NCBI GenBank assembly: GCA_020349885.1
Contig: CP070701.1
Location: 2,040,713 to 2,084,332, forward strand
Length of the DNA: 43,620 nt
Reading direction: 5' to 3'
From: Acidobacteriota bacterium
GTDB lineage: Bacteria; Acidobacteriota; G020349885
Shown here: piece by piece, positions 18,852-25,089 of the stretch
How positions within the stretch are numbered: the first letter of the stretch is position 1
Layout of the letters: every line of letters begins with the position of its first letter
Translations under genes and position numbers: made by a program
Notes under the pieces: model-generated
Told to the model about the DNA's origin: nothing
The model's input: only the letters and a program-made list of their open reading frames with translations
Databases searched by the model: none

Positions 18852-19466
18852 ATGTCCAAGGCAAGCACCCGCATCGCCGTCCTCCTTTCGGGGCGAGGAT
18901 CGAACTTTCTGGCCATCGCCCGCAAGGTGCTCGACGGAACCATTCCGGGAGAAATCGTTCTGGTGCTCAGCAACCGCAGCGACGCCGTGGGGCTGAAAAA
19001 GGCCGAGGACCTCGGCATCGACACCCTGTACCTCTCGCATCACGGCAAATCCCGAGAGGACTTTGACCGCGAAATGGTCGCAGCGCTCCGGGAGAGAAAC
19101 GTGGAGTTGGTGTGCCTGGCGGGATTTATGCGCATCCTCTCGCCAATCTTCATCCGGGCGTTCCCCATGCGCGTCCTGAACATTCACCCGGCGCTGCTTC
19201 CGGCCTTTCGGGGCCTCGATGGCCAGCGACAGGCGTTCGAGGCGGGCGTCAAGGTCGCGGGCGCGACGGTGCACTTCGTCACGGAGGGCCTCGACGAGGG
19301 CCCCATCATTCTGCAAAAGGCCGTTCCCGTGCGTGAGGACGATACCGTCGAGACCCTCTCGCGCCGCATCCTCCGGCAGGAGCACAAGATTTATCCCGAA
19401 GCCGTTCGTCTCTTCTGCGAAGGCCGCATTGAGGTGCGCGGGCATAAAGTACATATTCGACAATAG
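18852..19466 (+). CDS. purN: phosphoribosylglycinamide formyltransferase
   Basis: 204 residues, normal length for PurN. Transfers a formyl group from 10-formyl-THF to GAR, the third step of purine synthesis. The GAR-binding loop is LLSGRGSNF (about 11-19). The catalytic region has NIHPALLPAFRGLDG, with the expected Asn and His. The catalytic Asp sits in TEGLDEGPIILQ after GATVHFV. It lies 3 bp downstream of the preceding gene in the same operon and 30 bp upstream of the split PrcB-like gene. Nothing unusual in the motifs. Confidence 0.93.
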   Translation: MSKASTRIAVLLSGRGSNFLAIARKVLDGTIPGEIVLVLSNRSDAVGLKKAEDLGIDTLYLSHHGKSREDFDREMVAALRERNVELVCLAGFMRILSPIFIRAFPMRVLNIHPALLPAFRGLDGQRQAFEAGVKVAGATVHFVTEGLDEGPIILQKAVPVREDDTVETLSRRILRQEHKIYPEAVRLFCEGRIEVRGHKVHIRQ

Positions 19467-19496
19467 GAAAAGACGCTTCTATACAGGGTGAGTTCC

Positions 19497-20126
19497 ATGA
19501 TGCAAGGACGGGCATTGTGTGTGCTGTGGCTGAGCCTCGCGGCGGCGGGCGGCCTCTGGGCGCAAGACGACGCGAAGGAGCAAGCTCGTTCCTCCGCTGA
19601 CTGTCCTTCCGAGGCGCATGCCGATGAAAAGCACGTCGAAGGAACCCACGGCTGAGAGTGCAAGCATTTGCGGGCTCAGTTGAGCCGCGTCTTTCGCACC
19701 AACAGCTCGGCGTTCGACGAGGCCGGGGAGTTCGTTCTGGATACCGACGAAAAGTGGTGCGCGTTCTGGGACAAAGCGTACACCGACTTTCAAAACAAGC
19801 CTCCATGCCAGGGCCTCGGCGTGGATTTTTCCCATGAGACGGTCGTTGCCGTCTCGCTCGGAGAGCATAACGGCTGCTACGGCATCGAGATAGACCACAT
19901 ACACAGCACCGACGAGGAGGGTGTCTATGTGCTGGTCGTGAGCGAGCTCGAACGCAGCACCGATTGCCGTTGCGAAGAGGCTTTGGCGCATCCCGTGGAC
20001 GCGGTAAAGATCGAAGGCGCGGTCACGGGGGTGTTCATTGAGCGCTCCGTCAAACAGGTGCCGTGCAACTGGGGCAAGTCTCCACTGGAGCGCCGGTCGC
20101 GCCGCCGGCGCGGGGCGCTTTTTTAA
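19497..20126 (+). CDS. exported PrcB-like protein interrupted by an in-frame TGA (Sec candidate or nonsense mutation)
   Basis: From the ATG at 19497 (SD AGGGTGAG 5 nt upstream) a signal peptide ([12 protein letters not shown]) and a Cys/His-containing linker read 52 codons, then a single TGA at 19653-19655. The same frame continues GAG TGC AAG CAT and stays open to the TAA at 20124-20126. The downstream part resembles PrcB_C-type domains ([28 protein letters not shown]). No SD precedes the first start-like codon after the TGA (TTG at 19668), so the domain would be made only by readthrough. If TGA is selenocysteine, the protein is 210 residues with a Sec-Glu-Cys motif. A nonsense mutation or assembly error is equally possible. 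Confidence 0.55.
19656..19689 (+). promoter_or_regulatory. SECIS-like hairpin just after the in-frame TGA
   Basis: GGCTC (19673-19677) pairs with GAGCC (19682-19686) around an AGTT loop (19678-19681). Three further outer pairs form with one bulged G. The loop begins 23 nt after the TGA and has G and T in it, within the range usually described for bacterial SECIS elements. GC-rich DNA forms such stems often, so this is suggestive only. Confidence 0.35.
20089..20124 (+). terminator. intrinsic terminator at the end of the psd-purN operon
   Basis: AGCGCC (20089-20094) pairs with GGCGCT (20114-20119), and inside it CGCGCC (20098-20103) pairs with GGCGCG (20107-20112). A run of six T follows (20119-20124). 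The hairpin lies inside the last 12 codons of the PrcB-like frame, whose stop immediately follows the T-tract. Confidence 0.8.
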
Positions 20127-20230
20127 GCGCCGGGCCCCGCTTCGCGCAAGCCGCCCCGGCGCCGTCGTCAATGCCACTTCCTTATCCTTCACGCAACTGT
20201 CTGCGGTGCAGAAGGAAGCCGTCGAGTTGT

Positions 20231-20260
20231 TTGCCTGCGCGAAGCGGCCTTTGCTATACT
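20231..20260 (+). promoter_or_regulatory. promoter upstream of hslV
   Basis: TTGCCT (20231-20236), 18-bp spacer, TATACT (20255-20260) with TGC extension. The predicted transcript would start near 20267, only a few bases before the ATG at 20272, giving a nearly leaderless mRNA. An in-frame GTG at 20266 could then be the start. Confidence 0.45.
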
Positions 20261-20271
20261 CGGTGGTGAGC

Positions 20272-20799
20272 ATGTTTTTCGGAACAACCGTTGTGTGCGT
20301 GCGGCGGGGGAGCGGTCTCGCCATGGCGAGCGACGGCCAGGTAAGCCACGGAAACACCATAATGAAGCACGCCGCGTCCAAGGTGCGCCGCATCTACCAG
20401 GACCGGGTGCTCGCGGGGTTTGCCGGCTCCGCCGCGGACGGCCTCGCCCTTTTCGGCAGGTTCGAGGCGAAGCTCGAGGAGTACAGCGGCAACCTGCGCC
20501 GCGCGGCCGTTGAGCTCGCCAAGGAATGGCGGACGGACAAATACCTGCGCCGCCTCGAAGCCCTCCTTGCGGTCGCCGACCGGGAGCAGAGTTTCCTTAT
20601 TTCGGGCACGGGAGACCTTATCGAGCCGGACGATGGAATCGTAGCCATCGGCTCGGGCGGCCCCTACGCGCTGGCCGCGGCGCGCGCACTCGCCCGGCAC
20701 ACGGATCTCTCCGCGGAGGAAATCGCCGCCGAGGCGCTCAAGATTGCGGCGTCCATCTGCGTCCACACGAACGAGCACATCACGCTGGAGAAGCTCTGA
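20272..20799 (+). CDS. hslV: ATP-dependent protease, proteolytic subunit HslV
   Basis: 175 residues from the ATG at 20272. The N-terminal leader MFFG is removed to expose the catalytic Thr of TTVVCVRR. Family motifs follow: [42 protein letters not shown], and [15 protein letters not shown]. The C-terminal EKL ends normally. HslV forms a double hexamer that degrades proteins unfolded by HslU. An in-frame GTG at 20266 may be used if the transcript is leaderless (see promoter); the frame is open further upstream but that part lacks homology. It is followed 6 bp later by hslU. Confidence 0.95.
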
Positions 20800-22299: not shown

Positions 22300-23416
22300 A
22301 TGGCCACCTTCGACGAGCAGCGCGAGCGCCTCGAGGCGCTCGAAGAGGACTACGACGAACTGCGGAGGCATCTTTGACCTCCCGGGCCTTCGTTCGCGCA
22401 TAGCTTCCCTCGACAAGGAACTCTCAAATCCCGAAAGCTGGGCCGACTCGGAGAAGCGCGAGACGCTCGGGCGGGAGCGCGCCCGCGCCGAGCGGAAGCT
22501 GGTCTTTTACGAATCGGTCGAGCGGGCGCACCAGGACGCCGCGACTTATCTGGAGCTCCTGCGCGAGGGGGAGGACGCGGGGGAGGACCTCGAGGCGGCG
22601 CTCCTCAATTTCTCGCAGCTCCTTGAGCGCCTCGAAATTTCCCTCATGCTCTCCGGGGAGAACGATTCCAGGAACTCCTTCCTCTCCATCAACGCGGGCG
22701 CCGGAGGTACCGAGTCGCAGGACTGGGCCGAGATTCTTCTGCGCATGTACCTTCGCTGGGCCGAGGAGCACGACTACGAGACGCAGATCGTTGACCGGCA
22801 GCTCGGCGAGGAGGCCGGCGTCAAGTCGGCCACCCTGCGCGTCACGGGCGAATACGCCTACGGCTACCTGAAGGCCGAGTCGGGCGTCCACCGCCTCGTG
22901 CGCCTCTCCCCCTTCGACGCGAACCACCGCCGCCACACCTCCTTCGCCTCGGTTTTCGCTTACCCCGAGGTGGACGACTCGATCAAGATTCAAATCGAGG
23001 ACAAGGATCTCCGCATCGACACCTTCCGCGCGGGGGGCCACGGCGGCCAGCACGTGAACGTCACCGACTCGGCGGTGCGCATCGTCCACCTTCCCACGAA
23101 CATCACCGTGCAGTGCCAGAACGAGCGCTCCCAGCACAAGAACCGCGACATGGCCATGCGGGTGCTGCGCGCCCGGCTCTACGAGCACGAGCGCCAGAAG
23201 CGCGCGGCCGAGCGCGAGAAGCAGGAGGCGCAGAAGAAGGACATCGCGTGGGGCTCCCAGATCCGCTCCTACGTCCTCCACCCGTACAAAATGGTCAAGG
23301 ACCACCGCACCGGCCAGGAGGCGGGTGACGCCCAGCGGGTGCTGGACGGGGACCTGGACGAGTTCATGGCGGCGTACCTGCTCAAGGCGGCGCCCGGGGA
23401 AGCGCGGGAAGAGTGA
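22300..23416 (+). CDS. prfB: peptide chain release factor 2 with programmed +1 frameshift
   Basis: The first 25 codons from the ATG at 22300 run into an in-frame TGA (22375-22377) within the sequence GGAGGCATCTTTGAC. This matches the classical RF2 recoding site: an SD-like GGAGG three bases before CTT TGA C. After a +1 shift the frame reads LDLPGLRSRI and stays open to 23416, giving about 371 residues, the usual RF2 length. The anticodon-mimic motif SPF (RLSPFDANHRRHTSF) identifies RF2 rather than RF1, and GGQ lies in RAGGHGGQHVN. RF2 reads UAA and UGA; low RF2 lets the ribosome shift, giving autoregulation. Confidence 0.95.
22364..22378 (+). promoter_or_regulatory. prfB +1 frameshift site
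   Basis: GGAGG (22364-22368), 3-nt spacer CAT, CTT slippery codon (22372-22374), TGA (22375-22377), then C. The layout is the same as the Escherichia coli RF2 site. Ribosomes slip from CTT to TTT when termination at the TGA is slow. Confidence 0.95.
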
Positions 23417-23708
23417 AACCACGGAAAAGCGGGACCGGGAACGCAGCTTCTAAAAAACCTTTTCGAGCATCTGAAGACGCTGGAAGCGTTCGGCGGCGAA
23501 GCGGAAGAGCCCGCCGCCTCTCAGCAGGAATCAGGAGCCAGCCACCAGGGGTCAGAGATCAGTGATTGGTAAAGCGGCAGCCGTGCCCGTTCTCCTGTGT
23601 CTTGTGGTATGCATTAGGCCGGCTCTGTAGTATGGATTTCAAGAAAGCCGTTACCTGACATCAAATCGCTTCGGGAAATCGGGAAAAATTTCAAAAGGGG
23701 GGGCATGG
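23417..23708. other. intergenic region after prfB
   Basis: About 290 bp without a start-codon-bearing gene. The frame of prfB stays open after its TGA for a further 51 codons (to a TAA near 23570), with a coding-like amphipathic stretch LLKNLFEHLKTLEAF, but no start codon or SD is seen. It may be a gene relic or chance. The right edge holds the FHA promoter. Confidence 0.4.
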
Positions 23709-23714
23709 TATACT
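23707..23714 (+). promoter_or_regulatory. extended -10 promoter, near-leaderless, FHA copy 1
   Basis: TGG directly before TATACT (23709-23714), 8 nt upstream of the ATG at 23723. No clear -35 hexamer is found at 17-bp spacing and no SD precedes the ATG. The predicted transcript begins at or next to the start codon. The same arrangement precedes copy 2. Confidence 0.5.
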
Positions 23715-23722
23715 GCACGAAG

Positions 23723-24256
23723 ATGAACACTTCCTTTGCAGAGTGTCCCCAGTGTGGAGTTAGGTGGCGCACGCGAGGCGTCGAGGAAGACCAGCATCTA
23801 ACGTGCCCGTTTTGCGGGTACGAGTTTACGTTCCACTCGGTAACCCAACAGACCGCCGTCTGGGCCCGTCCGGATTTTTCACTGATGGAAGAGACGAACC
23901 CCATGGGCTTGCAAGATGGCGATGAACTGGGCCTGAGGGAACTGCCTTCCCACCTTAGCATCACACTGGAGATCATCAGCGGTCCCCAAAAAGGTCTAGT
24001 AATGGAAATCACCGAGAGCTGCATGACTCTGGGACGCTGCTTTCAGGGCACGGAGCTTGTGGACACATCCATGTCACGCAAGCACGCCGTGATCGAGATC
24101 TACGGCGACCGCGGGATTCTCTTGCGCGATCTAGCCTCCATCAACGGCACCCTTGTGAACGAGCAGCTTATCGCTCAGACACAACTCAAGGATGGTGACG
24201 TCGTCCGTATGGGGCTGACGGAGTTCAAGCTTCGAGTCCAGCCGAAGTCCTCATAG
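23723..24256 (+). CDS. zinc-ribbon/FHA-domain protein, copy 1
   Basis: 177 residues from the ATG at 23723. This gives exactly the same length as copy 2; an in-frame ATG six codons earlier (23705) overlaps the -10 box. The N-terminal zinc ribbon has CPQC (about 9-12) and CPFC (about 30-33) with RWRTRGVEEDQHLT between. A linker follows, and an FHA domain (about 80-175) shows GRCFQG, SRKHAVIE (phosphothreonine-binding Ser, Arg, His) and LRDLASINGTLVN (Asn-Gly). FHA domains bind phosphothreonine peptides; no kinase is in the window. Cytoplasmic; no signal peptide. Predicted to be translated from a nearly leaderless mRNA. Confidence 0.88.
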   Translation: MNTSFAECPQCGVRWRTRGVEEDQHLTCPFCGYEFTFHSVTQQTAVWARPDFSLMEETNPMGLQDGDELGLRELPSHLSITLEIISGPQKGLVMEITESCMTLGRCFQGTELVDTSMSRKHAVIEIYGDRGILLRDLASINGTLVNEQLIAQTQLKDGDVVRMGLTEFKLRVQPKSS

Positions 24257-24555: not shown

Positions 24556-25089
24556 ATGAGTACTCACCTGGTAGAGTGTCCCCAGTGCGTGGTTAAGTGG
24601 CGTACGCGAGGCGTAGAGGACGAACAGCAGTTGACGTGCCCGTTTTGCGGGTACGAGTTCACATTCCACTTTATGACCCAACGGACCGCCGTCAGTGTCC
24701 GCCCGGATTATTCGAAGATGGAAGAAACGGACCCCATGGGCGTGCAAGGCGGCGCCGGACTAGGCAGGACGGAGCTGCCTTCCCACCTTCGCATAACGCT
24801 GGAGATAATCAGCGGTCTTCAAAAAGGCCGGACGCTGGAAATCACCGATAGCTGCATGACTCTGGGACGCTGCCTCCGGGGTATAGAGCTTACGGACGTA
24901 GCCATTTCACGCAAGCACGCCGTGATTGAAGTCTACGGCGACCGCGGGATTCTCTTGCGCGATCTGGCCTCCATCAACGGCACCCAGGTGAACGGGCAGC
25001 TTATCGCTCAGGCACAGCTCAAGGACGGCGACGTCGTCCGCATGGGGACGACGGAGTTCAGGGTTCAAGTCCAGTCGAAGCCCTCCTAG
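24556..25089 (+). CDS. zinc-ribbon/FHA-domain protein, copy 2
   Basis: 177 residues, collinear with copy 1 without gaps. Zinc-ribbon motifs CPQC and CPFC flank WRTRGVEDEQQLT. The FHA part keeps GRCLRG, SRKHAVIEVYGDRGILLRD and SINGTQVN. Differences concentrate in the linker (about 45-75) and a few FHA loop residues, consistent with a duplicate under selection. It is convergent with tsaB, whose stop lies 52 bp beyond. It arose by a tandem duplication that also copied the end of tsaB. Confidence 0.88.
   Translation: MSTHLVECPQCVVKWRTRGVEDEQQLTCPFCGYEFTFHFMTQRTAVSVRPDYSKMEETDPMGVQGGAGLGRTELPSHLRITLEIISGLQKGRTLEITDSCMTLGRCLRGIELTDVAISRKHAVIEVYGDRGILLRDLASINGTQVNGQLIAQAQLKDGDVVRMGTTEFRVQVQSKPS

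Follow-up and report, generated by a model that had tools for sequence, protein, structure and literature searches.

Reading Frame of the Interrupted Gene

In contig CP070701.1 of an Acidobacteriota bacterium, a gene for an exported PrcB-like protein is interrupted by one TGA codon. Does this codon encode selenocysteine (Sec), or does it end the protein? The question is addressed here in the window, which is the whole stretch of 43,620 nucleotides that was analysed. The features of the locus are as follows, with positions counted from the first letter of the window.

19485..19492 (+): Shine-Dalgarno-like AGGGTGAG ahead of ATG 19497, with 4 nt spacing (sequence)
19497..20126 (+): whole gene, a 209-residue exported PrcB-like protein when TGA is read as Sec (translation, homologue search, codon usage)
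19497..19562 (+): signal peptide, cleavage likely before QDD (translation judged by inspection)
19602..19667 (+): His/Cys-rich linker (translation, alignment with homologues)
19653..19655 (+): in-frame TGA, proposed selenocysteine codon, U53 of the motif U-E-C (translation, Sec machinery, other Sec genes)
19670..19690 (+): candidate bacterial SECIS hairpin, loop AGUU at 19678–19681 (folding, bSECIS criteria)
19680..20075 (+): PrcB-like domain with conserved Cys (WC, PPC, GCYG, CRC, PC) (profile matches, homologue alignment)
20097..20119 (+): overlapping intrinsic-terminator-like hairpins with a T run at the 3′ end, on the gene's own strand (pattern match)

One frame covers 19497–20126 on the forward strand. 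In translation it is open apart from the TGA at 19653–19655, and it ends with ALF and a stop codon. The start codon ATG 19497 sits 30 bases past the stop of a purN-like gene (18852–19466). A preliminary description of the locus placed the signal peptide and the domain in the same frame, parted only by this TGA, and read the next two codons, GAG TGC, as the rest of a candidate Sec-Glu-Cys motif. Translation confirms both statements. Its claim of a good Shine-Dalgarno sequence at the first ATG and none downstream also holds: the former corresponds to AGGGTGAG, and none precedes TTG 19668, the earliest start downstream of the TGA. Coding sequence flanks the in-frame TGA on either side, as is required of bacterial selenoprotein genes. 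By codon usage, the log-likelihood per codon is 0.04 upstream of the TGA and 0.16 downstream, and this frame is the top of the six both times. With so short a piece upstream, the signal there is weak.

Two simple explanations are rejected. Reassignment of TGA to Trp is incompatible with TGA as a normal stop of neighbouring genes, and a frameshift with the single frame throughout.

The last residues of the protein (20076–20126 (+)) extend past the domain end of the relatives, and the terminator-like hairpins lie within their coding stretch. Four terminator-like patterns are found in the region, against 1.7 expected.

Elsewhere in the window, a prfB-like (release factor 2) gene at 22300–23422 (+) shows an apparent classical programmed +1 frameshift. 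Its ATG at 22300 is followed by 25 codons and then by CTT-TGA-C at 22372–22378, with an SD-like GGAGG just upstream. Counting the TGA at 19653, the window thus contains two candidate sites of UGA recoding, each of its own kind. Further downstream, 23705–24256 and 24556–25089 (+) encode a tandem pair of clearly related proteins, each with a zinc-ribbon-like CPxC...CPFC motif at the N-terminus and an FHA-like C-terminal part. They look like a duplication.

Relatives of the PrcB-Like Domain

The window protein itself matches PF14343 (PrcB_C) with an E value of 0.067 (13.8 bits, below the Pfam gathering cut-off of 24 bits) and NF033596 (dentilisin complex PrcB) with 0.0026 (17.5 bits, below the curated cut-off of 125 bits). 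Judged by sequence comparison, the similarity to PrcB is real: the window protein alone stays under the curated cut-offs, but its homologues make the link firm. The homologue of G100, from the same phylum, matches PF14343 at 5e-5 (23.8 bits), and another homologue, L034, at 3e-13 (50.1 bits). Residues 62–190 of the window protein align with the G100 protein at an E value of 9e-21 and 33% identity, and the domain cysteines are kept except at the "ITC" position. Plasmid-borne Tolypothrix proteins with a PrcB family annotation align with the window protein at 2e-7. The AlphaFold prediction from the single sequence has a mean pLDDT of 38, and the PDB search returned chance-level matches only (RGS2).

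According to a profile search, PrcB-like relatives are present in 25 of 296 genomes of the phylum, nearly all of them uninterrupted. By inspection, stand-alone relatives mostly carry apparent signal or lipoprotein signal peptides, which indicates that the domain depends on the stretch before the TGA. The nearest Cys-rich homologues, all uninterrupted, come from G100, G091, G136, and G214. With the window protein they share most of the cysteines in WC, before (I/V)DF, in (S/G)CY, in CxC, and at the terminus; the Cys of WC is missing in G214. In three of these genomes (G091, G214, and G136; L041, L046, and L056, respectively), the Cys-rich PrcB-like domain is C-terminal in larger proteins, which bear thrombospondin-type-3-like DxDxDG repeats. 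In two other relatives (L051 and L055), a PrcB-like domain follows, as a fusion, a VWA domain of the Acidobacteria type (TIGR03436); this suggests Acidobacteriota as the phylum but is no proof of it.

The preliminary description proposed a search for homologues with Cys or TGA at the position of the interruption. Cysteines do occur in the same linker. Just before the domain, the sequence is PKPC in G100, CPLC in G091, and CPAC in G136 and G214, at the place of U-E-C in the window protein. The linker of the Cys-rich homologues contains one to three cysteines, a single one in G100 and a CxxC in G091, G136, and G214. Cys-poor relatives are usually without linker Cys in a scan that reached the twelfth of 14 sequences. 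The linker cysteines are offset from U of the window protein by a few residues, and the match is regional, not a column-by-column alignment of Sec and Cys. A TGA-bearing homologue was found neither in about 400 genomes of the phylum nor in two genome-contig scans and one viral scan, and the contig and viral scans contain no close relative of the window protein by profile. TGA-bearing homologues in other Sec-decoding genomes are a usual supporting criterion for a selenoprotein, not a defining one.

The ITC cysteine of G100 and G091 is His in the window protein. As one domain cysteine of the subgroup is thus absent, the linker residues may pair with domain cysteines. The gene selA is present in all five genomes of relatives that were checked. 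The Cys forms therefore occur in genomes that probably can make Sec, implying that the family does not use Sec as a rule.

Selenocysteine Machinery and Other Sec Genes

The host genome, a single contig of 2.40 Mb, carries selA, selB, selC (tRNA-Sec), and selD. selA scores 563.9 bits. selB is above its curated cut-off, with an open frame of 649 residues that is full-length and includes the C-terminal part. The tRNA-Sec has the anticodon tca. selD scores 362 bits and itself contains an in-frame TGA at the Sec site (AAG-U-ASKL). In the formate dehydrogenase alpha gene, fdhA, a TGA likewise occupies the classical Sec position (CARTUHAPTVAGL). This Sec-containing gene (L066; G000 C1:347919–349190, minus strand) has an N-only stretch shortly downstream.

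By its gene content, the genome should be able to read UGA as Sec. A lack of Sec machinery was the main point named earlier as speaking against a selenoprotein; with all four sel genes and two Sec genes in the genome, it does not apply. A full Sec system and its use in at least two other genes indicate that UGA 19653 most likely encodes selenocysteine.

Candidate SECIS Hairpin

A hairpin with a G-containing loop at a distance typical of bacterial SECIS elements had been described after the TGA. It corresponds to 19670–19690 and consists of GCGGGCUC-AGUU-GAGCCGCGU, with a stem of 8 bp and a folding energy of about −11 kcal/mol (−11.0). The loop lies 22 nt past the UGA, and its positions 2 and 3 are G and U. 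Published bSECIS criteria are a loop of 3–9 nt, a stem of 4–16 bp, G in the first two loop positions, 16–37 nt from the UGA, and an MFE of −7.5 kcal/mol or lower (PMC13188914). The hairpin agrees with all four criteria of that publication, which is weakly diagnostic given a background of 11–22%. This background comes from 1000 codons of neighbouring genes in sequence of 62% GC: a loose model at −11 kcal/mol accepts 22% of them, a strict G[G/U] model 11%. The proportion falls to 2.1% when the geometry is restricted to that of the genome's two certain SECIS elements, a narrowing that is partly post hoc.

The same procedure finds the loop GGUCU at 18 nt and −14.3 for fdhA, and the loop GGC at 20 nt and −11.5 for selD. 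The wider stretch around the hairpin folds no better than usual (z about −0.8). No SECIS or other RNA family of Rfam is detected in the region, which says little because bacterial SECIS elements are variable. Taken alone, the hairpin is weak support for Sec.

Origin of the In-Frame TGA

The preliminary description left the choice between an undescribed selenoprotein family and a fresh nonsense mutation. The Sec machinery, the geometry of the hairpin, and the linker cysteines of the homologues favor the former; the search for a TGA homologue came out empty, and the latter stays among the explanations. In that case the TGA would have arisen in an otherwise normal gene for an exported PrcB-like protein, by recent nonsense mutation or through a wrong base in the assembly, and the locus would be a young pseudogene or an artefact. 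TGA is also a normal stop here, terminating four of nine neighbouring genes, and hairpins as good as this one follow 11–22% of codons. The missing TGA homologue speaks for a mutation as well. However, the 209 codons contain no second lesion, and neither codon usage nor the conserved residues show damage. The TGA stands in a U-x-C context, within the very linker where relatives have Cys or CxxC, and in a genome that decodes Sec. No further interrupted gene is seen in the window by a coarse codon-usage scan, which failed to list the PrcB-like gene itself. Genomes contain a handful of single-lesion pseudogenes each, some of them with TGA; this is an assumption of the weighing, which also took into account the share of TGA, a hairpin expected in about one of ten cases, and U-x-C at the place of the linker cysteines. 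On this basis a mutation or an error is an unlikely origin of the TGA.

It is far less probable that the locus makes two products, a 52-residue exported peptide that stops at the TGA and a cytoplasmic domain that starts at TTG 19668 or later. The stretch 19668–20126 does stand as an ORF of its own in a mechanical ORF list, but its TTG lacks an SD, the signal peptide and the domain share one frame in stand-alone homologues, and a Cys-rich domain fits an oxidising compartment. Hardly any weight can be given to the long antisense ORF at 19479–20393 (−) as the real gene, with the forward frame as its shadow. Its 304 open codons overlap into the hslV gene. It is the forward frame that has PrcB-like homologues, with E values down to 9e-21, and that tops the codon score among the six frames, and the terminator-like hairpins come after the forward gene.

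The gene thus probably encodes a small exported selenoprotein of a probable new family, with UGA 19653 as the Sec codon. This is a judgement and not a computed posterior. SelB and Sec-tRNA(Sec) would decode the UGA as selenocysteine, guided by the hairpin at 19670–19690, and the product would leave the cell via the general secretion pathway. It would consist of the signal peptide, a flexible His/Cys-rich linker ending with U-E-C, and the Cys-rich PrcB_C-like domain, which might serve as a disulfide-stabilised binding module. The selenol/thiol pair of U-E-C would then act outside the cytoplasm. It might be a redox-active group that pairs with C55 or a domain cysteine in a selenenylsulfide, or it might be a soft-metal ligand. 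The linker around the site contains several histidines, and the most plausible function is redox chemistry of thiol and selenol or the binding of soft metals. It seems fairly likely that the new family is characterised by an exported, Cys-rich protein of PrcB-like type that has exchanged a linker Cys for Sec, with an extracytoplasmic U-E-C site for redox or metal chemistry.

Comparison with Known Systems

The window protein resembles PrcB_C (PF14343) and PrcB of the Treponema denticola dentilisin complex (NF033596) in being exported and in sharing the domain by transitive homology (L034, G100, and Tolypothrix). It differs from these families by a score below every curated cut-off, extra conserved cysteines, and the linker with UGA/Sec. 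Membership in the dentilisin PrcB family also calls for PrtP/PrcA next door, whereas no secreted protease partner was seen adjoining the window gene. Going by their translations, the adjacent genes are purN and hslVU, and the HslVU product resides in the cytoplasm.

The gene shares with selD and fdhA of the same genome an in-frame TGA and a hairpin with a G[G/U/C]-type apical loop 18–22 nt downstream. selD and fdhA belong to established Sec families with many Sec members, and their sites are secure by position, whereas the site of the window gene is not.

The window protein has no match, at E values up to 10, among the selenoprotein families of NCBIfam 20.0, and no mention of PrcB together with selenocysteine was found in a literature search. 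An inventory from 2026 lists 119 prokaryotic selenoprotein families, without a PrcB-like member (PMC13188914). Its selenoproteins with U-x-C include the thioredoxin-like Sec.2 (UxC), DUF1573 (UGC), and the SO_0444 family transporter (UxC) (PMC13188914). The window gene is similar to these in the UGA followed by Cys two codons on and in the bSECIS-type hairpin, and differs from them in the domain family. Ordinary gene callers would split such a gene, reporting a cytoplasmic PrcB-like fragment and missing the exported selenoprotein. If the selenoprotein reading is true, uncharacterised PrcB-like proteins gain a hypothesis of redox or metal-binding function, and an extracytoplasmic PrcB-like family joins the roughly 119 known prokaryotic selenoprotein families, with a decoding mechanism that is itself ordinary bacterial Sec decoding.
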